Shown here piece by piece: positions 1,372 through 27,139 of a stretch of 57,684 nt of DNA. The stretch comes from Bacteroidota bacterium. GTDB taxonomy: Bacteria; Bacteroidota; Ignavibacteria; UBA10030; UBA8401. The stretch spans positions 1 to 57,684 of the forward strand of contig JAJYOK010000020.1 of assembly GCA_021796215.1 (NCBI GenBank), in the 5' to 3' direction. The stretch's first letter is position 1. Each line of letters opens with the position of its first letter. The notes under the pieces are model-generated. The model had not been told where the DNA came from. It did no database searches and saw only the letters and a program-made list of their open reading frames with translations. The position numbers and the translations under genes were made by a program.

Positions 1372-3603
1372 TTAACTCGCCGATTTTTCTTTCTTCAGCG
1401 AGCTTCCCGTAGCCAAACCGAACACGAAAATCACCAGCGCAATTGCGCCGATTGCAAAGATCGTATCGCCGAACATTCTCGACCATTTAATATTTTCCAT
1501 CAGCGGCGTAGAAAGGAATTCCGCGCTGCGGGCGTACCAGTAGCCGTATTTCACCGAAGCCCACGTCTGCATCAATCCGAGCGGCAGCAAGCTGATCACC
1601 ACCATCGCCATCAATCCGGCGTTGAGCGTCCAGAATGAAAATTTCAGCAAGCCTTCCTTCCAGTCTTCACGCACCCACATCACGCGCAGAGTGAATAACA
1701 TTAAGCCGATGCCGAGCATGCCGTACACCCCGAACAACGCGGCGTGTGCATGCACCGGTGTTGTATTCAACCCTTGCATGTAATAGAGCGCAATCGGCGG
1801 ATTGATCATGAAACCGAACAATCCTGCGCCGACCATATTCCAAAAAGCGACGGCAACGAAATAATAGAGAGGCCATTTGTATTTTGCCACCCACGGCTTT
1901 GCCTGCGAAAGGCGGATATTGTCCCACGCTTCGAATCCGACAAGCACCAGCGGCACAACTTCAAGCGCACTGAAAACAGAGCCGAGCGCAAGAATTGCTG
2001 TCGGCGTTCCGGCAAAATAGAGATGATGCAGTGTTCCGATAATTCCGCCGGCAAGAAATATTGTTGAGGAAAAAACCACAGAATGATTTGCCGTTTCGGA
2101 GCGGATCAATTTCAGCTTCGCAAACAAAAATGCGATGATGACGGTCGCAAACACTTCAAAGAATCCTTCCACCCACAAATGCACAACCCACCACCGCCAG
2201 TATTCGATGATGGAAAGATTGGTGTGCTTTCCCCACATCAATCCTGCCATATAGAAACCTCCGATGGCAACAGCCGAAATTAAAAATAATGTCAACAGCG
2301 ATTTGTTTTCATCGCCGCGTTTCAATGCAACGATAATGCAGCGCCCGACCAGATACACCCAGAGCGCTAAACCGATCACGAGTGCGATTTGCCAGATCCT
2401 GCCGAGATCAACATACTCAAGTCCCTGCGTTCCGAAATAAAACCACAAGCTTTCAGAAAGTTTATGATTGATGCTGAGCCATTCTCCCGCCATCGAGCCG
2501 AGAACAACAACGAGCAGCGCGGTGAAAAGAACATTGACGCCGAATTTCTGTCCCTTCGGCTCATGCCCGCTCACCACCGGAGCGATATACAATCCTGCCG
2601 CCAGCCACGCCGTTGCAATCCAGAAAATTCCGAGTTGTGTGTGCCACGTTCGCGTAACGACGTACGGCAGAATGGCGCTCAACTGAATTCCGTACAGCGA
2701 ATCTCCTTCTACTCCGTAGTGCGCGGTGATGACGCCCAAAAGAATTTGGAGAACGATAAGTCCCGACACCACCCAAAAATATTTCACGATCGCCTTTTGA
2801 GAAGGCGTCGGTGTTGTGTTGAACAGCGGATCGGAATCCGGCGCAACGGGCGCTGCGGTGCCGCTGATCTTTGATGCGTGATACCACACCATTCCGCCGA
2901 TGCCGGCAAGAAGAACAATAATGCTCACACCTGTCCACACAATCGCATCAGCAGTCGGCTGATTTCCGACGAGTGATTCGTGGGGCCAATTGCTCGTGTA
3001 GCTTACATCACTGTTCGGCCGGTGTGCTGTTGTCGCCCACGATGTCCAGAAAAAGAATGCGGCAAGCTCGCGAAGCTTTGTTCTATCGGTCAGCGCACCT
3101 TTCGGGATCGCGTACTTGACATGTCCGTTAGAAAAAATGTCGGAATAATGTGCAAGGTTGGCTTCGAACGCACGCATGCGGACCGGTTCAATGGTGATTG
3201 TGTTGGTGGACGCATCATACGTATTTCCCTTCATCATTGTTGTCAGGCGCGACTGCAATGAAGCCTGCTGATCGGCGGAGAGAACATTGTACGATTTTCC
3301 AAAGTCGTTCTCTGACCATTCATTAAGAATGAACACCGCCTCGCGATGCAGCCAATCGGCAGACCAATCCGGTGCGACATAACTTCCGTGTCCCCATACC
3401 GAACCGACTTCCATGCCGCCCATCTCCTGCCACACATTTTGCCCGCGTTCAATATCGCCGGAAGGAATCACAACCGTTCCGTCAGTCGTAACAACTCTGT
3501 CGGGAATCGGCGGATGCTGTTGATAAATCCGCGTTCCCGCCCAGCCAAGAACAAGAAATGAAACAATGATGACTGTCCAAAAACTGAACCAAAGACGTTT
3601 CAT
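1372..3603 (-). CDS. norB: Quinol-dependent nitric oxide reductase (qNOR)
   Basis: Single-subunit NO reductase that reduces two NO to N2O with electrons from quinol, in the cytoplasmic membrane. The 743-residue protein has the qNOR layout: an N-terminal membrane helix, a soluble cytochrome-c-like domain without heme ('GQNVWQEMGGMEVGSVWGHG'), then a 12-helix heme-copper oxidase core. Metal ligands can be seen in 'HTQLGIFW', 'VHLWVEGFFEVFATV' (His, with the Glu typical of NORs), 'GTLHHLYFAG' and 'PVHAHAALFG'. I chose the ATG at 3603 because GGAG lies 9 bases upstream and the protein then begins with the family-like 'MKRLWFSFW'; the frame stays open for another 31 codons upstream. It is the last gene of a minus-strand run of redox and NO-related genes, probably under the Rrf2 regulator at 7357-7791. 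Confidence 0.95.
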   Translation of the reverse strand: MKRLWFSFWTVIIVSFLVLGWAGTRIYQQHPPIPDRVVTTDGTVVIPSGDIERGQNVWQEMGGMEVGSVWGHGSYVAPDWSADWLHREAVFILNEWSENDFGKSYNVLSADQQASLQSRLTTMMKGNTYDASTNTITIEPVRMRAFEANLAHYSDIFSNGHVKYAIPKGALTDRTKLRELAAFFFWTSWATTAHRPNSDVSYTSNWPHESLVGNQPTADAIVWTGVSIIVLLAGIGGMVWYHASKISGTAAPVAPDSDPLFNTTPTPSQKAIVKYFWVVSGLIVLQILLGVITAHYGVEGDSLYGIQLSAILPYVVTRTWHTQLGIFWIATAWLAAGLYIAPVVSGHEPKGQKFGVNVLFTALLVVVLGSMAGEWLSINHKLSESLWFYFGTQGLEYVDLGRIWQIALVIGLALWVYLVGRCIIVALKRGDENKSLLTLFLISAVAIGGFYMAGLMWGKHTNLSIIEYWRWWVVHLWVEGFFEVFATVIIAFLFAKLKLIRSETANHSVVFSSTIFLAGGIIGTLHHLYFAGTPTAILALGSVFSALEVVPLVLVGFEAWDNIRLSQAKPWVAKYKWPLYYFVAVAFWNMVGAGLFGFMINPPIALYYMQGLNTTPVHAHAALFGVYGMLGIGLMLFTLRVMWVREDWKEGLLKFSFWTLNAGLMAMVVISLLPLGLMQTWASVKYGYWYARSAEFLSTPLMENIKWSRMFGDTIFAIGAIALVIFVFGLATGSSLKKEKSAS

Positions 3604-3692
3604 AGAATTACTCCAGATAATTTGGATGGATTGTTTAGGAAAAACAGAAAAATTAATTTCCCTTGATAGAACGTAGAAAACTTTTGCCATAG

Positions 3693-3819
3693 CCACGACA
3701 TTTATGTCGTGGAAAAAGAAAAAAACACGACCTCTCGGGCTTCAGCCTAAAAAAGAAATAATTTTGGCTAAAGCCGATTGCGGCTTTTGTTTCACTGTCC
3801 CACGACCTGAAGGTCGTGG
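3693..3819. repeat. Compound REP-like hairpin cluster upstream of qNOR
   Basis: Four hairpins: CCACGACAT-tt-ATGTCGTGG (3693-3712), GGCT-tc-AGCC (3738-3747), GGCT-aa-AGCC (3766-3775) and CCACGACCT-ga-AGGTCGTGG (3800-3819). The two GGCT hairpins also pair with each other across an A/T-rich centre. The GGCT hairpins match those around the RAYT at 206-637, so they are probably mobilised by the same system. The cluster occupies most of the gap between the cytochrome c gene and qNOR. Confidence 0.8.
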
Positions 3820-17214: not shown

Positions 17215-18228
17215 TTAATAAATGAGATTGAAAAGATAACCCACCATGATGATTCCTGTTCCGACGATTCCGACAAAAATAAAAATCAGCGGCAGCTTCA
17301 AAACCTTTCGCAGAATGATCGTTTCCGGAAATGACAGCCCGATCACAGACATCATGAACGCAAGAACAGTTCCCAACGAAGCGCCTTTTTCGAGCAATGC
17401 CTGAACAACCGGAATTATCCCTGCGGCATTGGAATACATGGGAATTCCAATGAGCACCGAAACAGGCACAGACCACCACGCCGATTTTCCCATCAACGAT
17501 GCCATAAAATTTTCCGGCACATAACCATGGATTGCTGCACCGACTGCAATTCCCACAACAATATACACCCATACTTTTGCAACGATCTCTTTCACTGCGT
17601 CAATTCCGGCATCTATTCTTTCGGAAGATGAAACCTTCGTTTCCTCCGCCGCCTCATGATGCACCTGAATTTTGTACACCCATTCTTCCACGTAACGCTC
17701 GAGTTTCAATCTTCCGATGATATAACCGGAGACGATTGCAATACTTAATCCTGTGATAATATAAACTAATGCCACTTTCCATCCGAAGAGTCCGAAAAGC
17801 AAAACGACGGCGATCTCGTTGATCATCGGTGCGGCGATAAGAAAGGAAAACGTTACGCCGAGCGGAATTCCGGATTCAACAAATCCGAGGAAAAGCGGAA
17901 TGGCAGAGCAGGAACAAAACGGCGTTACAATGCCAAGCATACTTGACAAGATGTTTCCAATAAAGAGTTTCTTCCCGCCAAGAATTTTTCGCGTCCGCTC
18001 TGGAGAAAAATATGACCGGACAATTCCCACAGCAAAAACAATAAGTGTCAACAACAGCAGTACTTTGGGGACTTCAAAGATAAAAAAATGCACTGCGGAT
18101 GTGAGCGGGCCATTTTTTCCAAGATGAAAAATAGAATTGACGATAAAATCAGCGAGCGTTTCAAGATTGCTGTAGAGCACAGCCCATAACACAAGAAGCG
18201 CCGCGAGTATCCCTGTCTTTTGTTTCAT
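17215..18228 (-). CDS. Permease of the ArsP/YraQ family (DUF318)
   Basis: 337 residues with about eight membrane helices in two repeats. The family signature 'TPFCSCSAIPLFLGF' (C105, C107) is in the first half; a matching 'GIPMYSNAAGIIPVVQALL' is in the second. Family members include ArsP, which exports methylarsenite and other trivalent organoarsenicals. Because ArsM is encoded in the same island (23409-24170), export of methylated arsenic is a reasonable proposal, though YraQ relatives with other roles exist. It follows the small CxxC protein gene at 18235-18477 by six bases, a pairing common for this permease family. ATG at 18228 is preferred over a TTG one codon upstream. Confidence 0.85.
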   Translation of the reverse strand: MKQKTGILAALLVLWAVLYSNLETLADFIVNSIFHLGKNGPLTSAVHFFIFEVPKVLLLLTLIVFAVGIVRSYFSPERTRKILGGKKLFIGNILSSMLGIVTPFCSCSAIPLFLGFVESGIPLGVTFSFLIAAPMINEIAVVLLFGLFGWKVALVYIITGLSIAIVSGYIIGRLKLERYVEEWVYKIQVHHEAAEETKVSSSERIDAGIDAVKEIVAKVWVYIVVGIAVGAAIHGYVPENFMASLMGKSAWWSVPVSVLIGIPMYSNAAGIIPVVQALLEKGASLGTVLAFMMSVIGLSFPETIILRKVLKLPLIFIFVGIVGTGIIMVGYLFNLIY

Positions 18229-18234
18229 CAAATT

Positions 18235-18477
18235 TTACACTACCTCCTGTTTCAGAATTTCTTGAAGCTGAGCGACGGTCGGAACATGCCCTTGAACAAC
18301 AACTCTATTGTCAATCACGAGACTTGGAGTGCGCATAACTCCGTACGACGCGATTTGTTGAAAGTCTGTCACTTTTTCTATCGGAGCGCTGATGTTCAAT
18401 AATTTCATTGCTTCAATTGTACGTTGTTCTAACGTTCTGCAATTCATGCAGCCCGAACCAAGAACTTTAATAGTCAT
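18235..18477 (-). CDS. Small thioredoxin-fold CxxC protein (redox-active disulfide protein 2 type)
   Basis: 80-residue cytoplasmic protein starting 'MTIKVLGSGCMNCRTLEQRT', with C10 and C13 as the redox pair and the cis-proline region 'YGVMRTPSLVIDNRVV'. These mini-thioredoxins regularly sit next to ArsP/YraQ permeases and ArsR regulators; a thiol-transfer or metalloid-carrier role is suspected but not proven. The ATG at 18477 is preceded by AAGGAAAC at good spacing, so the longer upstream frame is not used. A decayed relative with nearly the same N-terminal protein sequence is at 21310-21429, and a second intact paralogue at 20063-20311. Confidence 0.85.
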   Translation of the reverse strand: MTIKVLGSGCMNCRTLEQRTIEAMKLLNISAPIEKVTDFQQIASYGVMRTPSLVIDNRVVVQGHVPTVAQLQEILKQEVV

Positions 18478-18550
18478 AATGTTTCCTTTTTTATGATTGT
18501 TATACCTTTCCGAAAAAAGCACGGGATCTCGTTTTACACTTTTGGGCGAG

Positions 18551-18961
18551 TTAATTGAAAAATATCTGATACTGAATTTCAGCTTCATTGATATTTTTAT
18601 TTCCGTTGAACTGTGTTTTATAACCTGACATCAATTTATTTTTTTGTGTGAAGTAGTAATTCAGTCCAATCAAATACCATTCGCTATCCATTGTTACCGA
18701 ATTAACGTCCTTGTATTTTTCTGTTTGAGTTAGTGATTGAAAATCGTTTGACAGATAGTAAGCGGCATACGCATAATAGCCCCACGCACTGTGATTGCTG
18801 ATATCCGCTTGTACAAATTCGCCTTGGAAATCGAATCCGGCGATTTTCAGTTGGCAGTGGATTCCATATCGGTAATCATTCACCGTTACGACAACATTCG
18901 GAAGCGTGCAATGTATTAACTCAAATTTATCATAAAACGCTTTCCTGTTTATAGTCTCCAA
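18551..18961 (-). pseudogene. C-terminal fragment of a porin (Porin_O_P-like)
   Basis: About 136 codons of amphipathic beta strands: 'GIHCQLKIAGFDFQGEFVQ', 'WGYYAYAAYYLS', 'SEWYLIGLNYYFTQKNKLMS', then a last strand ending near Phe. This resembles the C-terminal third of phosphate-selective porin O/P family barrels, which are normally about 350-450 residues. There is no signal peptide, no ATG at the start, and the CcdA gene ends 13 bases upstream, so the N-terminal two-thirds are missing. I read it as a remnant left by insertion or deletion inside the arsenic/thiol island. A short independent outer-membrane gene is less likely. Confidence 0.65.
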
Positions 18962-18973
18962 TTTTTTCAGGCC

Positions 18974-19666
18974 TCAATGTAGTAAATACACGCCGCCCAG
19001 AATTACCAAAACTCCGCAAACTCTCTTAACCCATAGAATTGCTTTCGAACCATCGCTCCAGTTTAAGTATTTCTGAATTTCCCCCGTTAATGTTCCGGCG
19101 CCGACAATAACCGAGCAATGTCCGACTCCAAATGCAAGAAGAAAAATTATAGCCAGAGAATAATTCGTCTGCGCTGTTTGAAAAACTACGCCAAGCACCG
19201 GCGCCATGTAAGCAAATGTGCAAGGTCCTAATGCTAAACCAAACAATAATCCAAGAATTAATGCCGCAATCAGCCCGCGGACGGTTGTCGGTTGAAGAGA
19301 AAATGTATTCCATTGCAGACTGATGACATCCAGCAAATACAATCCAATGATGAAGAAAACTCCCGCGACAAAATAGTTGCCGATGTGTCCGACATCTCCC
19401 ATCAGTCTTCCCATTGAAGCGGTAACCACACCAATCAGTGCTATAGTAATTAAAATGCCTACAGCAAAAATCAAAGAAATGGAAAATGTTCTGCCGGAGG
19501 AAATTTTCCCCTGTGATGCAATATAACCGACCACTAGCGGAATGCTGGAAAGATGACATGGCGAAAGTAAAATGCTCAACACACCCCAGCCGAATGATGC
19601 TGCGATTGCCAGCCACACAGAGCCGGTCATCGCGTTATACAGTGCTGTGAAAATATTCTCATACAT
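18974..19666 (-). CDS. ccdA: CcdA-like cytochrome c biogenesis/thiol transporter
   Basis: 230 residues and about six membrane helices. The two cysteines that shuttle electrons are in 'LLSPCHLSSIP' (C37) and 'LGPCTFAYMAPVLG', each in the canonical Pro-Cys context of the CcdA/DsbD family. CcdA moves reducing equivalents from cytoplasmic thioredoxin to periplasmic thiol proteins. Immediately upstream is a secreted thioredoxin (one base apart), its obvious partner. Placement in an arsenic island suggests it supplies thiols for metalloid handling, not only for cytochrome c maturation; that is inference. Confidence 0.88.
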   Translation of the reverse strand: MYENIFTALYNAMTGSVWLAIAASFGWGVLSILLSPCHLSSIPLVVGYIASQGKISSGRTFSISLIFAVGILITIALIGVVTASMGRLMGDVGHIGNYFVAGVFFIIGLYLLDVISLQWNTFSLQPTTVRGLIAALILGLLFGLALGPCTFAYMAPVLGVVFQTAQTNYSLAIIFLLAFGVGHCSVIVGAGTLTGEIQKYLNWSDGSKAILWVKRVCGVLVILGGVYLLH

Positions 19667-19667
19667 G

Positions 19668-20066
19668 TCAATTGCCGGTCTTCGTGAGTGTTAGGCCGCG
19701 TTCCTTGAAAATTTTATGAATTTCACTTTCGGGGAAAAATCCTTCGTGACGGAAAAATTCTTTCCCGTTCTCATCCAAAAACACCTGTGTGGGGATGAGG
19801 CGAATCCTGTATTTCTGTGCATACGGCTGTTGTTCTTCGGTCCACACATCGTAAAAAATTACTTTCACTTTCTCTCCGTATTTCTGTTCGATGGCTTTCA
19901 TTACCGGCTGCATTTTTTTGCAGGGGATACAGTTAACGGAGCCAAGTTCAATAAACGTGATCATCGGCTTTTTCGACGGAGATGTTTCGGTTTTTTGCTG
20001 TGAGAATACAATTGATGCCTGACTGATAAATGCTATCAGCAATACCAAAAAAAGGGCTGCTTTCAT
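19668..20066 (-). CDS. Secreted thioredoxin-family protein
   Basis: 132 residues with a cleavable-type signal peptide (about 1-22, ending near 'SIVFSQQ') and a thioredoxin domain with active site CIPC (C46-C49) in 'ELGSVNCIPCKKMQPVMKAI'. The cis-proline region is 'IRLIPTQVFLDENGKE'. It should act in the periplasm as a thiol reductant receiving electrons from the adjacent CcdA-like protein. Its start codon overlaps the stop of the small CxxC gene upstream (ATGA), so three thiol-redox genes are tightly coupled: 20063-20311, this gene and ccdA. Confidence 0.9.
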   Translation of the reverse strand: MKAALFLVLLIAFISQASIVFSQQKTETSPSKKPMITFIELGSVNCIPCKKMQPVMKAIEQKYGEKVKVIFYDVWTEEQQPYAQKYRIRLIPTQVFLDENGKEFFRHEGFFPESEIHKIFKERGLTLTKTGN

Positions 20067-20311
20067 TCTGTCATTCCTTCCTTAATCCATGTAATAATTT
20101 GTTCGTCTTTGGGAATAATACCGACACTTTTTACCTTTTCATTTATCACAAGTCCCGGTGTCGAAAGAATTCCATACTTCATTATTTCCATGATGTCTTC
20201 GACTTTTATTATCACCGCGTCTAATTGATGTTTGGCAACCAGTTCGGATACTTTTACATTCAGTGCTTTACATTTTGAACAGCCTGAACCGAGTATTTTT
20301 ATTGTTGTCAT
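20063..20311 (-). CDS. Small thioredoxin-fold CxxC protein, paralogue
   Basis: 82-residue cytoplasmic mini-thioredoxin: 'MTTIKILGSGCSKCKALN' with C11 and C14, then 'MKYGILSTPGLVINEKV' around the cis-proline. It is homologous to the protein at 18235-18477 but diverged. It overlaps the secreted thioredoxin gene by four bases. A role as thiol relay or metalloid-binding protein in this island is probable but not shown by the sequence. Confidence 0.85.
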   Translation of the reverse strand: MTTIKILGSGCSKCKALNVKVSELVAKHQLDAVIIKVEDIMEIMKYGILSTPGLVINEKVKSVGIIPKDEQIITWIKEGMTE

Positions 20312-20328
20312 GATTTCCGCTTATTGTA

Positions 20329-21219
20329 TCAATAAATCAAATTAAGATTCTCGCATACCTGGCATTCGAACTGAAATGTACAGTGTGTCAGATCAAATCG
20401 TTCGTGCAGCGCATGCTCTAATTGGTTCTTTAGTGCCGTTGTTTTGCTCAATAAACCGTCGCCTATAGTGATATGTGCTTCAAAATGAATGTCGTGGTCA
20501 TTCATCCGCCATATGTGAACATGATGAACGTTGCTGATTTCAGGAAATGTTTTTGTGACAAATCTTTCGACTTCCTGAATATCAATCTCAGGCGGAACAG
20601 ACATCATCACGACATCAGTCGCTTCTTTGATGATGAGGTACGATTCCCGAACGATATAAAGCGAGATAAGAATTGTGAGAAAAGGATCAATCCAGTAGAT
20701 ATTAAACTGAAGTATGAACAATGCCCCGATGATGACGGCGAGACTCGAAACAGCATCGCTCAGCAAATGCAAATATGCCGCTTTCATATTCATATTCTTA
20801 TTGGCATCTCGTTTCAGCAGCAGTGTGCCAACAACATTTGCAAGAAGGCCTCCGGTAGCGACAATCAGCATTGTGGCTCCGTTTACCTCTAAAGGGGTAG
20901 AGAATCGTTCAATCGCTTCTTTAATCAGAAAAAAACTGATAATAACAAGCGTTGAGGCGTTCAGAATGGCTGCAAGAATTTCTGCACGTTTCAATCCAAA
21001 CGTGTATTTATATGAATTCGGTCTTTTGCTTAATCTGTTTGCAATATACGTGATGATAATTGCTAAGCCGTCGCTAAAGTTGTGAAGCGCATCGGAAATG
21101 AGCGACAAGCTTCCCGAAAATATTCCACCGATGATTTCTATAACGGTGATGAAAAAATTCAGCGCCATTGTTATAACGAGACGAGAGCCGCTTATTGCAT
21201 AAGTGTGTGAATGTGCCAT
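20329..21219 (-). CDS. Cation diffusion facilitator (CzcD/ZitB-like)
   Basis: 296 residues. Six membrane helices occupy about 10-205, with metal-site residues 'SLISDALHNFSDGLAI' in helix II (HxxxD) and 'AAYLHLLSDAVSSLAV' in helix V (HxxxD). A cytoplasmic C-terminal domain ('NVHHVHIWRMNDHDIHFEAH') binds further metal. CDF proteins exchange Zn, Cd, Co or Ni for protons and export them from the cytoplasm. A histidine is present at the N-terminus (MAHSHTY) but the loop is not strongly His-rich. It shares the direction and island of the thiol and arsenic genes, extending the island to divalent metals. Confidence 0.92.
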   Translation of the reverse strand: MAHSHTYAISGSRLVITMALNFFITVIEIIGGIFSGSLSLISDALHNFSDGLAIIITYIANRLSKRPNSYKYTFGLKRAEILAAILNASTLVIISFFLIKEAIERFSTPLEVNGATMLIVATGGLLANVVGTLLLKRDANKNMNMKAAYLHLLSDAVSSLAVIIGALFILQFNIYWIDPFLTILISLYIVRESYLIIKEATDVVMMSVPPEIDIQEVERFVTKTFPEISNVHHVHIWRMNDHDIHFEAHITIGDGLLSKTTALKNQLEHALHERFDLTHCTFQFECQVCENLNLIY

Positions 21220-21309
21220 TACAAATACTCACCAAATAATAGACCGGCAACAACAGAGAGTGTCATAATTAAAAGAATTTATATTTGATTTTTCCACTGA
21301 TGGTACGCT

Positions 21310-21429
21310 GCTTTGCCAAACAACTTTTTCTATGTTTGAGTTAAAGTTCATTTGTTAAAGGGCTTCAACGGTTCTGCGTTCCAGTGTTCTGCAATTCATA
21401 CATCCGGGCACTAACACTTTAATTGTCAC
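21310..21429 (-). pseudogene. Decayed 5' end of a small CxxC thioredoxin-fold gene
   Basis: From a GTG at 21429 the frame reads 'VTIKVLVPGCMNCRTLERRT' then VEAL and stops at 21355-21357. This closely matches the start of the intact protein at 18235-18477. Past the stop, a shifted frame gives 'QMNFNSNIEKVV', echoing 'LLNISAPIEKVTD' of the intact copy. So this is a frameshifted, truncated homologue lying directly downstream of the ArsR gene at 21469-21786. DNA identity to the intact copy is clearly lower than protein identity, so it is not a very recent duplicate. Confidence 0.75.
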
Positions 21430-21468
21430 ATACTGTTTCCCTTAATCTGACAGTCCTGTAACTTAGGT

Positions 21469-21786
21469 TTATACTTCTTCGAGCACTCCAGCCTGAGTTT
21501 CAATGCTTCGTTTGGCGATTGCTGCCGCGAGGTCAAGAATCTTAAATACTCGTTCATCAGCTATTTTGTAATTCACCCGCAATCCATCTTTCCACGAAAT
21601 AACAATGCCTTGCTGCACTAAAATTTTCATGTGGCGGGAAAGGTTCGACTGCTCAAGGTCCAATTTAGGAGCAATTTCACAGTTACATTTCACTCCGTTT
21701 TTCAAAAATTCCAAAATGCGAACTCTGTTTGGATGTGCGAGCGCACTTAAAATATTTGCCTTTAATTCTTCCTGTGTTTTTTGCAT
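21469..21786 (-). CDS. arsR: ArsR/SmtB family metalloregulator
   Basis: 105 residues, a winged-helix repressor. The metalloid-binding pair is in 'GVKCNCEIAPKLDLEQSNLS' (C34, C36), at the alpha-3 position of classical ArsR proteins; 'SNLSRHMKILVQQGIVISW' is the recognition helix and wing. It senses As(III)/Sb(III) or a thiophilic metal and derepresses when bound. The perfect inverted repeat at 21813-21836 upstream is its likely operator. Downstream on the same strand lie the remnant CxxC gene, the CDF transporter and the thiol genes, which it probably controls. Confidence 0.9.
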   Translation of the reverse strand: MQKTQEELKANILSALAHPNRVRILEFLKNGVKCNCEIAPKLDLEQSNLSRHMKILVQQGIVISWKDGLRVNYKIADERVFKILDLAAAIAKRSIETQAGVLEEV

Positions 21787-21812
21787 GACGCCCTCGTTAC
21801 ATGACTAATTGA

Positions 21813-21836
21813 CTATATGAGCAATTACTCATATAG
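21813..21836. promoter_or_regulatory. ArsR operator palindrome, upstream of 21469-21786
   Basis: CTATATGAG (21813-21821) and CTCATATAG (21828-21836), a perfect 9-bp inverted repeat with a 6-base centre, 27 bases before the arsR start codon. Size and A/T-rich outer arms fit ArsR/SmtB operators. Confidence 0.75.
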
Positions 21837-21924
21837 TGTGCCAGAAAAATCTTCTGGTATTGAAAGATTTATGCATCTTGATTCTGACAATTATTATTTT
21901 TGCAATAACCCGCTCTTAGAAATC

Positions 21925-22983
21925 TCAAACGTCAGAAGTTTGTATATCGAAATATTTCACTTTAATCCACAACGATACATTCACAAGAAGAATAAGCACC
22001 GGAACTTCCACCAGCGGTCCAATCACTGTGGCAAATGCAACTTGTGAATTAATGCCGAAGACAGCTACTGCAACAGCAATCGCCAGTTCAAAGTCGTTGC
22101 TTCCTGCGGTGAATGAAACGGTCGCCGCTTTTTCGTACGACGCACCGATGCGCTTAGCGATGAAGAACGTAATGAAAAACATTCCTGCAAAATAAAAGAT
22201 GTACGGAACCGCAACCCGGATAACATCCATCGGCAGTTCAATAATCTTTTCCCCTTTCAGCGAGAACATTACAAAGATTGTGAAGAGCAACGCTAAAGGC
22301 GTAAGCATAGAAATTTTGGGAACTAACTTTTTATGATACCATTCTTTACTCTTGGCACGAAGAAGAACTGCACGCGTTACTATTCCTGCGATAAATGGAA
22401 TTCCAAGATAGGTGAGAACAGTAACTGCAATCTTCCCAATGGATATTTCTACCAGCGTTCCTTTAAATCCAAAGAGCGGCGGAAGCAGTGTAATGAAGAG
22501 ATAAGCATACACCGAATAGAGAAATACCTGAAAGATGGCGTTGAATGCCACCAGCCCCGCCGCAAGTTCCGAATCTCCTTTTGCCAAATCGTTCCACACA
22601 AGCACCATGGCAATACAGCGCGCAAGTCCGACAAGAATGACACCGATCATCAGCTCCGGCTTGTCCGGCAAAAAAATAATTGCAAAAATGAACATCACCA
22701 ACGGGCCGAATACCCAGTTTTGCAGCAGTGAAAGCGACAATATCTTAACATTCTTGAACACAACTGGAAGCTCTTCGTATTTCACTTTTGCGAGTGGCGG
22801 ATACATCATTAAAATGAGGCCAATTGCAATAGGAATATTTGTTGTGCCGGAACTTAACGAATCCCAGAAACCTGCAATGCCAGGATACAACGCTCCGGCC
22901 GCTACGCCAAAAGCCATGACAAGAAAGATCCAAACAGTTAAATACCGGTCAAAGAATGGAAGTTTGCCTGATACGGTGCTCAT
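21925..22983 (-). CDS. acr3: ACR3 family arsenite efflux transporter
   Basis: 352 residues, about ten membrane helices, normal for ACR3. The conserved cysteine is in '[20 protein letters not shown]' (helix 4) and the essential second signature is '[18 protein letters not shown]'. It extrudes arsenite as the anion using the proton gradient. The arsC stop overlaps this start (ATGA), and it closes the four-gene run arsR-arsM-arsC-acr3. An intact reading frame and all signature regions make function secure. Confidence 0.95.
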
Positions 22984-23408
22984 AACGATTCCTTTAAAAT
23001 ATTTTCTGTGTAGAAGCGAAAAAAACCATTCTTGATTTCATCGCGAACGCGGCGGAATACGGCAAGAATTTCTTCTTCTGTTCCGGTTGCTTCTGCGGGA
23101 TCATCGAATCCGATGTGCAGACGATGCCGAACACTTCCGACAAAGACCGGGCATGTTTCCCGCGCATTATTACACACCGTTATTACATAATCGAAAGAGT
23201 GCGAAAGAAATTGCTCAACAGATTTCGGGTAATTTTTGCTGAGGTCAATTCCAACTTCGTTCATTACCTGAATCGCTTTGGAATGAACGCGCGACGCAAT
23301 GTTTGTACCTGCAGAAAAAACTTCCAATGATGAATCGAATGATTTCACAAACGCTTCTGCCATTTGGCTTCGGCACGAATTGCCGGTGCAAAGAACGAGG
23401 ATTTTCAT
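22980..23408 (-). CDS. arsC: Arsenate reductase, thioredoxin-coupled
   Basis: 142 residues of the low-molecular-weight tyrosine-phosphatase fold. The P-loop is '[14 protein letters not shown]' (C7...R13) and the redox pair is C79 and C86 in '[11 protein letters not shown]'. These three cysteines correspond to Cys10, Cys82 and Cys89 of the pI258-type enzymes that use thioredoxin, not glutaredoxin. It reduces As(V) to As(III) in the cytoplasm, providing substrate for ACR3 and ArsM. The many thioredoxin-like genes in the same island fit that electron source. It follows arsM with no gap and overlaps acr3 by four bases. Confidence 0.95.
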
Positions 23409-24170
23409 TTATTTCACACCACCGACTGTGATACTTTCAAGTCTGAAAGGAATGCCGTCATCGGATGGATATTGCTTCTCGCTCACTATGGTAACATCAA
23501 CAAAACCGGCGGCTTTGATCACGTTAAGATATTCCTCTTTCTCCATCGCGCCGCCAACGCACCCCGCCCACAACTGCATGTCATCCCGCACTTCATTGGG
23601 AATTGTTCCGACTGAAACGACATCGGAAATTGTAAATTTTCCGCCGATCTTCAGCACGCGGTAAATTTCCGAAAATGCTTTTTTCTTGTCGGGCACCAAA
23701 TTGATCACACAATTACTGATAACGCGGTCAACCGAATTCGCATCAACCGGCAAATTTTCAACTTCACCTTTTCGAAACTCAGCGTTTGCTATTCCCAACT
23801 TCTCTTTATTCGCGTTCGCGCGGTTAATCATCGCATCCGTCATATCAATACCGATAGCTTTTCCGGTCGCGCCGACATTCTGCGAGGCAAGAAAAACATC
23901 AATGCCCGCACCGGAGCCAAGATCAAGCACGGTCATTCCTTCTTCTAAATCTGCAAACGCCGTCGGTGTTCCGCAGCCAAGACCGAGATCTGCGGCTTCA
24001 GTAATTTTCTCATCGGCATTTACATACGAATCATTCATTGAAATCGCAACGGGCTGTTGCGGGCTTGAATCGCAGCCGCAATTCGGACCGCATCCCTGCT
24101 TTGTCGGGACTGAAGATGCAATTTCCCCATATTGTTCACGTACCGCTTGTTTTAATTCTTCACTTGTCAT
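23409..24170 (-). CDS. arsM: Arsenite S-adenosylmethionine methyltransferase
   Basis: 253 residues. SAM motif I is 'VLDLGSGAGIDVFLASQNVG' (about 81-100). The three cysteines required for As(III) methylation are present: C66 in 'DLGLGCGTPTAF', C154 in 'VISNCVINLVPDKKKAF' and C204 in 'LWAGCVGGAMEKEEY'. An extra N-terminal cluster C27, C31, C33 ('QGCGPNCGCD') may assist metalloid or thiol binding. ArsM yields methylarsenite and then dimethyl or volatile trimethyl forms. It sits between arsR and arsC in a single run. The ArsP-like permease at 17215-18228 would suit export of its products. Confidence 0.94.
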   Translation of the reverse strand: MTSEELKQAVREQYGEIASSVPTKQGCGPNCGCDSSPQQPVAISMNDSYVNADEKITEAADLGLGCGTPTAFADLEEGMTVLDLGSGAGIDVFLASQNVGATGKAIGIDMTDAMINRANANKEKLGIANAEFRKGEVENLPVDANSVDRVISNCVINLVPDKKKAFSEIYRVLKIGGKFTISDVVSVGTIPNEVRDDMQLWAGCVGGAMEKEEYLNVIKAAGFVDVTIVSEKQYPSDDGIPFRLESITVGGVK

Positions 24171-24190
24171 TATTTTTTTCCTTTCAGGGT

Positions 24191-24577
24191 TTATTTACAA
24201 ATAGCCGTGATGTTCGATGGTTTAATAACAGAGAATGTTGTGCAGCAGCCTTTTTTAATGTTTCGTGTGAGAAGTTTCGCGTCACTCTGTGCCACAGGCT
24301 GCGAGCGCACAATTTCTGAAACGCAATCCAATATTTGCTTGTGCTCTGGATTTTTCGGTTTTGAAACGGAGTAGAGTTTCCACAATCCTTGTCGGCGCTC
24401 GGTTACCAATTGCGCTTTCTTCAAGTAGGCGAGATGACGTGAGACTTTCGTTTGAGTGAATCCCATGGTGGCTTCGATATCGCAGACGCATAACTCTCCG
24501 GATGTCAGCAAAATACTGATAATCCTCAGCCGTGATTCATCAGAAAGCGCCTTAAAAACATTTGCCAGATTTTTCAT
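24191..24577 (-). CDS. arsR: ArsR family arsenic repressor
   Basis: 128 residues. It has the textbook metalloid site 'GELCVCDIEATMGFTQTKVS' (C30, C32) and wing 'RRQGLWKLYSVSK'. The C-terminus adds 'KKGCCTTFSVIKPS', two adjacent cysteines that could be a second thiol ligand set. It is the first gene of the arsR-arsM-arsC-acr3 run, 20 bases before arsM. A 28-base inverted repeat at 24590-24617 just upstream is the likely operator. It is clearly distinct from the ArsR at 21469-21786, so the island has two regulators. Confidence 0.93.
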   Translation of the reverse strand: MKNLANVFKALSDESRLRIISILLTSGELCVCDIEATMGFTQTKVSRHLAYLKKAQLVTERRQGLWKLYSVSKPKNPEHKQILDCVSEIVRSQPVAQSDAKLLTRNIKKGCCTTFSVIKPSNITAICK

Positions 24578-24589
24578 ACCATGCCTTTG

Positions 24590-24617
24590 AACTATATTTG
24601 TTTAAACGAATATAGTT
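24590..24617. promoter_or_regulatory. ArsR operator palindrome, upstream of 24191-24577
   Basis: 28-base inverted repeat: arms AACTATATT (24590-24598) and AATATAGTT (24609-24617) around a GTTTAAAC core, with one mismatched pair. It begins 13 bases before the arsR start codon. Its core differs from the operator at 21813-21836, suggesting separate specificities. Confidence 0.75.
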
Positions 24618-24855: not shown

Positions 24856-25338
24856 ATGAAAACACTCTTTGCACTTATCTTGATTGCGGGAATCGCTTTG
24901 ATGCCGTTGTCCGCTTCATCACAATCGAAGCAGAAGGCGCCGAACTTTTCTTTGAAGACGGCAAGCGGAAAAACTATCGAGCTTTCAAAATTGAAAGGGA
25001 AGGTCGTCGTCGTCAATTTCTGGGCAACGTGGTGTCCGCCGTGCCGTGCAGAAATTCCCGGTTTTGTTGATCTCTACAAAAAATATAAAAACAAAGGAGT
25101 TGAGATCGTCGGCATTTCGCTTGATCAAAACGGATGGGATGCCGTGAATCCGTTCCTTCAAAAAAATAACATCAACTACCCCATCGTTGTCGGCAACGAA
25201 GAACTCTCTAACAGCTACGGCTCAATTGAAGCGATTCCTACAACATTCATTATTGATAAAAAGGGATACATTGCAGAGCATCACGTAGGTTATTTTGAAA
25301 AAGAGAAACTCGAAAAAGCTTTAAAATCGCTTCTCTAA
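24856..25338 (+). CDS. TlpA-like periplasmic thioredoxin
   Basis: 160 residues from the ATG at 24856. The signal peptide (about 1-23) ends near 'LSASSQS', then an AhpC/TSA-Redoxin domain follows, with active site C60-P-P-C63 in 'VNFWATWCPPCRAEIPGFVD' and 'GSIEAIPTTFIIDKKG' containing the cis-proline. It acts as a periplasmic reductant, in cytochrome c maturation or general disulfide reduction. It lies 16 bases before dsbD, whose product would re-reduce it. The frame runs on upstream through the degraded 30-bp element, but the ATG with a following signal peptide is the real start. Confidence 0.9.
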   Translation: MKTLFALILIAGIALMPLSASSQSKQKAPNFSLKTASGKTIELSKLKGKVVVVNFWATWCPPCRAEIPGFVDLYKKYKNKGVEIVGISLDQNGWDAVNPFLQKNNINYPIVVGNEELSNSYGSIEAIPTTFIIDKKGYIAEHHVGYFEKEKLEKALKSLL

Positions 25339-25354
25339 ACATATCAAAGCTGCA

Positions 25355-27139
25355 ATGATGAAATTCTTCCATCTTGTCGTTATCATTGTTTTCTTTCTGA
25401 TTGGTTTCCCGGCGCGGACAGTCAGCCAAACGCAGACTTTTGCCAGCGCAGGAAAAATCAGCATCGAAACGAAATTGTCTGCAGATAAAATACCTGCGGG
25501 CGCCACGTTTAACATCGCTGTCATCGTGACGATCGCGGACGGATGGCACATCAATTCAAACACGCCGTCAACATCTGATCTCATCGGAGCGAAGTTAGAT
25601 GTCGAGCCGAAAGACGGATTTATCATTGCCGATGTTTCCTATCCGAAAGGAAGCGACGAGAAGCTTTCATTTTCAGATTCACCGCTGAATGTCTATCAGG
25701 GAAAGCAGATTATTTTCCTGAATGTCAAAACATCAGAAAATCTGAAAAAAGGAATTGATACTCTTCATGCATCTTTGCGAGTGCAAGCGTGCAACAATGC
25801 GATTTGCCTTGCGCCCTCTGAAATTCCAATCGCGGTACCGATCGAAATTGCCGGAGCAAATGAAAAGAACTCTTCAATAAATGGAAGTGTTTTCGCTTCG
25901 TATCACGGAGCTTCGGAGAACATCGTTTCACCAAATGAAATTGGGACTATTTTTCAAGAAAAAGGAAGCACGCTTGCGTTCCTTGCAATCTTTCTCATCG
26001 GACTCGCATTGAACTTGACACCATGCGTTTATCCGATGTTGTCGGTAACGGTTTCAATCTTCGGCGCGCAAAACGACACAAACATGCTTCGGGTTTTTTT
26101 GAAAGCAGTAACGTACGTTCTTGGCATTGCAACCATGTACAGCGTGTTGGGAGTTGCTGCCGCACTTGGCGGCGGACTTTTTGGAAGCTGGCTTCAAAGT
26201 CCGTTTGTATTAGGCGGCATCGGCGTGCTGCTTATCGGATTGTCGCTGAGCAGTTTTGGTTTGTATCAAATTCAAATGCCGTATTGGTTGACAAGCAAAT
26301 TGGGCGGAACGACAGGAACGGGAATTATCAGCTTGTATCTTTCAGGGCTTGTCGTCGGAGTTTTTGCGGCACCGTGCGTCGGCCCGCCGGTAATTGCACT
26401 GCTCGCGTTCGTCAGTGCAAAGGCTGATCCTGTTTTTGGATTTTGGGTTTTCTTCACATTGTCGCTTGGACTTGGCTTGCCGTATCTTATTCTCGGAACA
26501 TTTTCTGGCGCGCTGAAAAAAATTCCGCGCTCCGGAGAATGGATGGTGTGGGTGGAAAAGATTTTCGGTGTTGTGCTGAGCGGTGCCGGAGTGTTTTATC
26601 TTTCTCTCGCAATCGTACCGAAATATTCCGTCTATGTAATTCCCTTAGTATTATTTTTCGGAGGAATTTATTTAGGATTTCTTGAACGATCGGGAAGAGA
26701 TAAAAAAATTCTCCTGCGTATAAAATGGATCTTCGGCATAATTGCGATTGCAGCAGGAATTATGACAGGCAGTTCATTGCGGGAACAAGGAATGCAGTGG
26801 GAACAGTACAGTGAAACCCAGCTTGCCGAAGCGCAGCGCCAGAACACACCGGTGATGATAGATTTTTATGCCGACTGGTGTATTCCATGTCTCGAGCTTG
26901 ATCACAAAACATTTACCGACAAAAAAGTTATTGACGCGACTGAAAATTTCGTCCGCCTCAAAGTAGACCTAACACATTTCGATTCACCGCAATCTGAGTC
27001 TTTGCGGAAAAAATACAACATTGCCGGCGTTCCAACGATTGTATTCCTTAATAAGAACGGCACTGAAGTAGCGGCTTCCCGCATTGTCGGATATCTTCCT
27101 CCGAAAGAGTTTGTCCAAAAAGCTTCGTCGGCATTGTAG
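25355..27139 (+). CDS. dsbD: Thiol:disulfide interchange protein DsbD
   Basis: 594 residues in the three-part DsbD order. After a signal peptide comes an N-terminal immunoglobulin-like domain (about 30-170, with a cysteine pair in 'VQACNNAICLAP'), then a CcdA-like eight-helix membrane domain (about 200-460, cysteines in 'NLTPCVYPML' and 'FAAPCVGPPV'), and a C-terminal thioredoxin domain with CIPC in 'DFYADWCIPCLELDHKTF'. It carries electrons from cytoplasmic thioredoxin to periplasmic substrates. Together with the TlpA-like protein upstream and the separate CcdA/thioredoxin set, this window encodes two transmembrane thiol relays. The first of two tandem ATGs is taken as the start. Confidence 0.94.
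   Translation: MMKFFHLVVIIVFFLIGFPARTVSQTQTFASAGKISIETKLSADKIPAGATFNIAVIVTIADGWHINSNTPSTSDLIGAKLDVEPKDGFIIADVSYPKGSDEKLSFSDSPLNVYQGKQIIFLNVKTSENLKKGIDTLHASLRVQACNNAICLAPSEIPIAVPIEIAGANEKNSSINGSVFASYHGASENIVSPNEIGTIFQEKGSTLAFLAIFLIGLALNLTPCVYPMLSVTVSIFGAQNDTNMLRVFLKAVTYVLGIATMYSVLGVAAALGGGLFGSWLQSPFVLGGIGVLLIGLSLSSFGLYQIQMPYWLTSKLGGTTGTGIISLYLSGLVVGVFAAPCVGPPVIALLAFVSAKADPVFGFWVFFTLSLGLGLPYLILGTFSGALKKIPRSGEWMVWVEKIFGVVLSGAGVFYLSLAIVPKYSVYVIPLVLFFGGIYLGFLERSGRDKKILLRIKWIFGIIAIAAGIMTGSSLREQGMQWEQYSETQLAEAQRQNTPVMIDFYADWCIPCLELDHKTFTDKKVIDATENFVRLKVDLTHFDSPQSESLRKKYNIAGVPTIVFLNKNGTEVAASRIVGYLPPKEFVQKASSAL

Follow-up and report, generated by a model that had tools for sequence, protein, structure and literature searches.

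The arsenic-resistance (ars) genes of a Bacteroidota bacterium raise a simple question: what is a very small thioredoxin doing beside an ArsP permease, when accounts of organoarsenical export as a rule name only ArsP? The genes lie on contig JAJYOK010000020.1 of assembly GCA_021796215.1, positions 1 to 57,684 of which were analysed (referred to below as the window), and run along the minus strand from 24577 to 17215, where every gene named by an earlier reading made from the letters alone (the sequence-only reading) is found as an open frame. On balance we think it probable that the genes form an arsenic-resistance island on the chromosome, made up of two units (A and B) under ArsR control, the second being an organoarsenical-type module that comprises ArsP, a mini-thioredoxin dedicated to it (mini-thioredoxin 2) and a relay of mini-thioredoxin 1, a CcdA-type membrane protein and a secreted thioredoxin. 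The idea of a redox gene set in ars operons is not new and the island itself is an ordinary one of known kind. What is added here is that the two mini-thioredoxin paralogues each have a partner of their own, that mini-thioredoxins and ArsP proteins carrying a C(S/T)C motif are paired near-constantly, and that the CcdA-type protein occurs in the place of ArsG.

Mini-thioredoxins 1 (20063..20311) and 2 (18235..18477) match the NCBIfam model TIGR00412, named 'MTH895/ArsE family', with 97.3 and 95.9 bits (cut-off 62), and the first also has a sequence match to MTH895 of known structure (1ilo; E 2.8e-8). ArsP (17215..18228), a PF03773 permease (248.6 bits; gathering score 32.3) with the motif TPFCSC, follows mini-thioredoxin 2 after a gap of 6 bp, bearing out the claim of the sequence-only reading that an ArsP/YraQ permease stands next to a mini-thioredoxin. 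Profile searches of the whole source genome (3.37 Mb in 44 contigs) identified one ArsP_1 gene and three TIGR00412 matches, all within the island. The sequence-only reading had also named co-occurrence of the mini-thioredoxin, ArsP and ArsM families as a check to be made, and the link between the first two proves to be tight. In 148 genomes of the phylum, which are related rather than independent, TIGR00412 is over its cut-off in 48 and ArsP_1 reaches at least 200 bits (a line set after the scores had been seen) in 48; 47 genomes have both, one has the mini-thioredoxin only and one the high-scoring ArsP only. In these counts TIGR00412 and ArsP_1 matches under cut-off were dropped and two truncated Acr3 matches were kept. 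A mini-thioredoxin lies within 3 kb of 46 of the 49 high-scoring ArsP genes as against none of the 39 low-scoring ArsP_1 genes, and an ArsP_1 gene within 3 kb of 51 of the 55 mini-thioredoxin genes.

The same was seen in 99 genomes, again related, of a second phylum that was entered via a Deltaproteobacteria locus (ArsP_1 matches below 80 bits and TIGR00412 matches under cut-off being dropped): 57 have both genes, six the mini-thioredoxin only and three the high-scoring ArsP only, with a mini-thioredoxin within 3 kb of 51/64 high-scoring ArsP genes versus 3/43 low-scoring ones (80–200 bits). With relatives among the genomes of both phyla, Fisher values for these counts exaggerate the association. 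Around the 80 nearest ArsP genes (the best 80 of 534, in named genomes) a mini-thioredoxin is present within 5 kb in 76 cases. The arsenic setting described in the sequence-only reading is likewise supported, both by the family matches and by ars neighbours: acr3 lies within 5 kb of 32 of the 49 high-scoring ArsP genes of the first phylum versus none of the 39 low-scoring ones, and acr3, arsC or arsM is found on the same strand within 5 kb in 25 of the 39 ArsP loci that have complete flanks.

ArsP proteins of ars operons fall into two clusters, the TPF form of the motif marking cluster 2 and an LAV context cluster 1, according to the available sections of PMC4435449. By that scheme the window protein is a TPF form and belongs to cluster 2; TPFC[ST]C is present in it and in all 40 aligned rows of its kind. 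Like the Campylobacter jejuni ArsP (PMC6205960, accessible part), it is a PF03773 permease that carries a C(S/T)C motif, and acr3 lies in the same island. Neither the TPFC[ST]C motif nor the N-terminal motif of cluster 1 is present in 20 sampled stretches of the mostly low-scoring group (19 below 200 bits, one at 203), and no mini-thioredoxin is found in the roughly 5 kb fetched around those 20 ArsP_1 matches. Twenty-one high-scoring ArsP proteins from other genomes (20 stretches hand-picked from the high-scoring rows rather than drawn at random, plus locus L135) comprise three with the TPF motif and 18 that belong to cluster 1, the latter with LAVCSC or a near form and an H..xC..PA motif. A mini-thioredoxin is present in the fetched stretch for 19 of them, 3/3 of the TPF kind and 16/18 of cluster 1, and mini-thioredoxins therefore accompany C(S/T)C ArsP of either cluster; a restriction of the pairing to the TPFC[ST]C cluster was dropped, since cluster 1 ArsP is also paired. 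No PDB structure was found as nearest fold of the ArsP model (best E 0.11), nor any PDB match by sequence.

Three side observations concern the surroundings and size of ArsP. Most high-scoring ArsP proteins examined in the second phylum have 400–490 residues and belong to cluster 1, the extra length having been described in 2010 as a hydrophilic insertion. A gene of ~257 residues whose product by eye resembles pyrroline-5-carboxylate reductase lies near ArsP in 15 of the 80 loci (L087, for example), on the ArsP strand in 14 of the 15; we know of no arsenic link for this enzyme. A small cysteine-rich protein, by eye resembling the zinc-binding DGC type, is encoded close to the mini-thioredoxin and ArsP in five loci including L071, and also at L135 2191-2577.

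If one mini-thioredoxin is tied to ArsP, what of the other? In a tree of 99 mini-thioredoxin rows (alignment of 77 columns, fine branching unsure) 24 of the 27 copies that precede a secreted thioredoxin fall in a single 27-row clade (SH-aLRT 86), with mini-thioredoxin 1 of the window inside it. The 26 copies that precede ArsP are spread over three places outside that clade, and mini-thioredoxin 2 belongs to a 10-row clade (support 100), eight members of which precede ArsP. The tree thus sorts by operon partner, one paralogue going with the secreted thioredoxin and CcdA, the other with ArsP. The sequence-only reading recognised neither this division nor the fact that relatives have ArsG where the window has the CcdA set. 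Two copies are present in 10 of 27 loci with a CcdA-type gene, in none of 32 with ArsG and in 2 of 21 others. The CxxC pair is found in all 104 mini-thioredoxin rows and in all 47 secreted thioredoxin rows (CIPC in the window); these rows, like those counted for CcdA below, come from phmmer matches, including frames L060 and L106, and are not all independent, loci L015-L028 overlapping L029-L108 so that some genomes enter counts, alignments and trees twice. L060 and L106 were considered as natural fusions of mini-thioredoxin and ArsF, a claim we do not make, with 12 and 2 N standing right at the junction.

Mini-thioredoxin 1 is followed by a secreted thioredoxin-like protein with a hydrophobic N-terminus (19668..20066) and by the CcdA-type protein (18974..19666), with gaps of -4 and 1 bp, so that the coupled trio described in the sequence-only reading is indeed there. 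The hydrophobic N-terminus recurs in 27/27 CcdA loci and in most ArsG loci. The CcdA-type protein scores 53 bits to DsbD_TM (cut-off 27) and falls short of the ArsG model NF040495 (47.1 bits; cut-off 200), to which three ArsG-type proteins of Bacteroidota relatives score 309–315 bits; three of seven CcdA-type relatives score 46–47 bits and the other four have no match at E 0.001. ArsG, CcdA-type and DsbD proteins form separate clades in a tree. Sorting the 80 nearest ArsP loci with profiles of our own making, the ArsG type being checked against NCBIfam for three proteins, gave 27 with the CcdA type (all 27 also with the secreted thioredoxin), 32 with the ArsG type, 21 with neither and none with both; for the 39 loci whose flanks reach 5 kb in each direction the corresponding numbers are 16, 16, 7 and 0. 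History, and not function alone, may lie behind this exclusion, because the split between CcdA and ArsG partly follows taxonomy. Spread of the CcdA-type protein on plasmids was set aside, as it was found in just 2 of 72,556 plasmid records.

The CcdA-type protein has a cysteine in each of two membrane helices in 38/38 rows, C37 and C149 being invariant in 27 rows, and its predicted structure (pLDDT 75.9) has CcdA 5vkv as its best PDB match (Foldseek probability 1.00, TM 0.52, E 0.02). With both membrane cysteines retained and a model closest to CcdA of known structure, the protein looks like an electron carrier and is best read as part of a putative transmembrane electron relay.

Unit B would then be an organoarsenical-type module like ArsE/F/G plus ArsP. 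ArsP would export a trivalent organoarsenical, most likely methylarsenite, with mini-thioredoxin 2 as its dedicated cytosolic thiol partner, which might either release the arsenical from cell thiols or keep the Cys-Ser-Cys pair of ArsP reduced. Mini-thioredoxin 1 would feed electrons to the CcdA-type protein, which would hand them on to the secreted thioredoxin on the outer side of the inner membrane; there this branch may keep thiols or exported arsenicals reduced. The observed part of the proposal consists of gene content, conserved cysteines, co-occurrence, the paralogue clades, the CcdA-like model and a conserved operator (discussed below); the substrates, the inducer and the direction in which electrons flow we infer throughout. 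The interpretation in the sequence-only reading, that the mini-thioredoxins may carry reducing power or trivalent arsenicals to the permease and that the CcdA branch may keep periplasmic arsenic trivalent or protect thiols, is thus supported in part.

Several findings weigh against this proposal. In the second phylum 25 of 87 mini-thioredoxin genes have no ArsP_1 gene within 3 kb and the 3 kb around 13 of 64 high-scoring ArsP genes contain no mini-thioredoxin (genes near contig ends being counted in both cases), and 14 of the 39 complete-flank ArsP loci have none of acr3, arsC and arsM within 5 kb on their own strand. The Foldseek E-value of the CcdA match is just 0.02. The operator is degenerate before the ArsR2 relative of L037 and was not seen before that of L103. 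Finally, the nearest locus, L029, is identical to the window at 91–93% of DNA positions over the island and near flanks (80–86% further out) and is without one block, window 18491-21910, which extends from arsR2 to a porin remnant. The CcdA branch may therefore be dispensable, since L029 does without the block from arsR2 to ccdA at this locus and keeps mini-thioredoxin 2 and ArsP.

A clue to the chemistry of the mini-thioredoxins comes from two genomes of the second phylum, in which the first active-site codon is TGA (GMGUPKC; L135 1937-2170 and L136 40-273). The L135 gene lies near ArsP_1-type and CcdA-like genes and that of L136 near acr3 and a thioredoxin. Both proteins are probably selenoproteins, judging from the position of the codon and from SelB, which is over its cut-off in one genome of the two (that of L135, not that of L136); as for an RNA element behind the TGA codons, neither an Rfam match nor unusual folding was found. 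If the codons are selenocysteines, the first position would be the redox nucleophile, and the placing of the TGA codon there would favour redox chemistry for the mini-thioredoxin. The genes for SaoE and SaoT are neighbours and, by their NCBIfam names, similarly combine, in one system, an exporter resembling ArsP_1 with a thioredoxin-like (seleno)protein. The window proteins differ from them, however, ArsP scoring 143.5 bits against 325 for SaoE and mini-thioredoxin 1 scoring 20 bits against 65 for SaoT, to which mini-thioredoxin 2 has no match at E 0.01. SaoT and a selenocysteine-assisted organometallic system are named in the accessible part of PMC13188914.

Might the mini-thioredoxins instead be carriers of arsenic rather than reductases, their CxxC pair binding As(III) or methylarsenite (MAs(III)) and handing it to ArsP much as ArsD does to ArsA? 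Two closely spaced thiols, the pair being invariant, would suit a carrier, as would the near-constant pairing with ArsP, but the relatives with TGA (probably selenocysteine) at the first position and the tie of one paralogue to the secreted thioredoxin and CcdA both fit electron transfer better. We regard the carrier role as unlikely, whilst noting that the two roles are not mutually exclusive.

A second alternative looks to unit A, an ordinary arsR-arsM-arsC-acr3 set of the kind claimed in the sequence-only reading, where open frames and family matches agree. ArsR1 (24191..24577), an ArsR/SmtB repressor with an ELCVCD motif, is followed by the arsenite methyltransferase ArsM (23409..24170; NF008823, 318 bits against a cut-off of 263; C66, C154 and C204 invariant in 26/26 aligned rows), the thioredoxin-type arsenate reductase ArsC (22980..23408) and the arsenite exporter Acr3 (21925..22983; TIGR00832, 423.9 bits against 282.8), with operon-like gaps of 20, 0 and -4 bp. 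The best match of ArsC, to the pI258-type equivalog TIGR02691, is below cut-off (128.5 bits; 174.3) and its redox cysteines C7, C79 and C86 are invariant in 48/48 aligned rows. Unit A would handle inorganic arsenic, with ArsC reducing arsenate, Acr3 exporting arsenite and ArsM methylating it. Castillo and Saier (2010; PMC2963123, available sections) proposed that CcdA, a thioredoxin and 'redox-active disulfide protein 2' make up a redox set in ars operons, reporting eight instances in seven organisms, and the same three genes stand here beside arsC and other ars genes. The set might accordingly serve ArsC and general thiol repair, as suggested in 2010, with no specific tie to ArsP; arsC is present in seven of those eight operons and the window ArsC has the cysteines of a thioredoxin-type enzyme. 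ArsC is cytoplasmic, however, as those sections also state, whereas the thioredoxin of the trio has a signal-like N-terminus here and in the 27/27 CcdA loci, and mini-thioredoxins track the high-scoring C(S/T)C ArsP rather than low-scoring ArsP_1. Service to ArsC and thiol repair with no specific tie to ArsP is thus, in our view, distinctly unlikely. The set described in 2010 also differs from the present one in that, in the part of that paper available, the small protein is not tied to ArsP, whilst here there are two mini-thioredoxin paralogues with separate partners, and none of the loci has both the CcdA type and ArsG. A literature search that left most subscription papers outside it found no report of near-constant pairing of mini-thioredoxin with ArsP or of the exclusion between CcdA and ArsG; the novelty of these is unproven.

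What controls unit B? ArsR2 (21469..21786), the second ArsR/SmtB repressor, is preceded by the operator ACTATATGAG-N6-CTCATATAGT (21812..21837), and arsR1 by an operator-like palindrome, ACTATAT...ATATAGT (24591..24616), neither being assigned to a strand. The sequence-only reading had given the second ArsR a palindrome of its own, rightly so: the pattern ACTATAT-N8..16-ATATAGT has two sites in the window, one before each arsR, and none in 100 shuffles. As the two palindromes share the outer halves ACTATAT/ATATAGT and no third is present within the window, ArsR1 and ArsR2 may read each other's sites. Six ArsR2 relatives scoring above 110 bits (L019, L037, L049, L066, L086 and L103) all precede a mini-thioredoxin or ArsP. 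In the window, L019 and L049 the operator, as ACTATATGAG-spacer-CTCATATAGT, begins 42–54 bases ahead of the gene; L066 and L086 have the core at -43 and -40, respectively. A wider ArsR2 regulon was set aside, there being one further perfect core site in the genome (on C26), with different outer bases; a core match by itself means little, because a reversed control pattern matched as well, 6 and 6 times versus 3 and 3 for the true pattern. That further site, the perfect palindrome TATGAGCATATGCTCATA (G000 C26:20273-20290; L114), precedes a frame that is DUF134-like by eye, no family search having been made.

ArsR2 has two cysteines in all, both in the sequence VKCNCEI (CNC) of the DNA-binding part; its relatives in L037 and L103 have three and four, and the other four have two, in the frames as called. 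For As(III), the ArsR of Escherichia coli can make do with two cysteines. SpArsR is a methylarsenite-selective repressor (PMC11868830) linked to arsP (PMC12124457), and in the available text of these papers it resembles ArsR2 in this linkage and in having just two cysteines for its ligand. A two-cysteine site would by analogy fit an organoarsenical sensor, though the ArsR2 cysteines sit elsewhere: SpArsR has a C-terminal site in common with AfArsR (PMC11868830, accessible part). ArsR2 was accordingly rejected as an SpArsR-like sensor, the cysteine count fitting and the position not.

The CxC motif of ArsR2 also invites a third explanation, in which ArsR2 is a metal sensor and unit B serves a divalent thiophilic metal (Zn, Cd or Cu), with a cation diffusion facilitator (CDF) family exporter as its main output and the ArsP_1 protein as a Cu/Zn-type exporter. 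The CDF gene (20329..21219) is the first intact gene past arsR2, and ArsR2 and ArsP score 49 bits to the Cd/Pb sensor CmtR and 107 bits to the Cu/Zn exporter SO_0444, respectively. These scores are far below the cut-offs of 150 and 300, however; a same-strand CDF gene lies within 5 kb in just 3 of the 80 ArsP loci, acr3 keeps company with high-scoring and not low-scoring ArsP, and in L019, which otherwise has the same genes, the stretch scanned contains no CDF match. A divalent-metal role is, we believe, very unlikely.

Chen, Zhang and Rosen reportedly described, in 2019, the ArsEFG system of Shewanella putrefaciens in connection with roxarsone and nitarsone. Like ArsEFG, the window trio consists of an ArsE-family mini-thioredoxin, a thioredoxin-like protein and a DsbD_TM membrane protein, and ArsG occupies the same place in Bacteroidota relatives; the window membrane protein is not ArsG, however, and the secreted thioredoxin has LGSVNCIPC, unlike the YYFHxxxRCxTC-like motifs of ArsG loci. 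The least probable explanation, in our view, is that the CcdA-type protein acts as an efflux permease for arsenicals, as proposed for ArsG: it takes ArsG's place (27 loci versus 32, none with both) and shares its Pfam family, with related profiles, but scores 47 bits against a cut-off of 200, forms a separate clade, keeps both redox cysteines invariant and has a CcdA-like model, although cysteines alone do not separate the two by chemistry because ArsG rows also keep one in two helices.

The order of unit B is arsR2, a mini-thioredoxin relic, CDF, mini-thioredoxin 1, secreted thioredoxin, CcdA type, a porin-like frame, mini-thioredoxin 2 and ArsP, starting with arsR2 138 bp past acr3. Gaps of 17, -4 and 1 bp join cdf to ccdA, whereas 496 bp separate ccdA from mini-thioredoxin 2, unlike the operon-like spacing within trio and pair. 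The relic (21322..21426) covers the first 35 positions of TIGR00412 and has an internal stop, and its DNA is closer to mini-thioredoxin 2 than to mini-thioredoxin 1. In L019, from the same family, the order is arsR-arsM-arsC-acr3-arsR2-miniTrx2-arsP-miniTrx1-trx-ccdA. We infer that unit B of the window was rearranged, with CDF and the trio now lying between arsR2 and the mini-thioredoxin 2/arsP pair. The truncated porin-like (outer-membrane) frame of 136 residues (18551..18961) is probably a remnant; it has no Pfam match over cut-off, and its sole relative in the loci scanned is a 330-residue frame in L020 with Porin_O_P over cut-off. Divergent from arsR1, at 24856-27139 on the plus strand, are a ResA-like thioredoxin and a DsbD that has all its domains (N-terminal, membrane and thioredoxin); the L029 island, too, is flanked by a DsbD-like frame (L029 2839-4620). 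The gene list of the sequence-only reading stands for the genes it named, whilst the CDF gene, the relic, the porin-like frame and the ResA-like/DsbD genes were left out. Further away, at 1372-3696 on the minus strand, the window encodes a nitric oxide reductase of the NorB type that includes a cytochrome c-like domain.

Tentatively, a wider possibility can be put forward: that C(S/T)C ArsP of both clusters may not work as a permease by itself but be one half of a two-part machine, in which a dedicated mini-thioredoxin, at times probably a selenoprotein, would perform redox chemistry on the arsenical–thiol complex, and that CcdA/secreted thioredoxin and ArsG/ArsF may be interchangeable transmembrane branches, so that ArsG, although named an efflux permease, might be an electron conduit. 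Should ArsP depend on a mini-thioredoxin of its own, then assays in E. coli that lack this partner may underestimate or misread what ArsP transports, and surveys of resistance should score the two genes together. That the CcdA set and ArsG exclude each other makes it testable, for its part, whether ArsG is a permease or an electron carrier.

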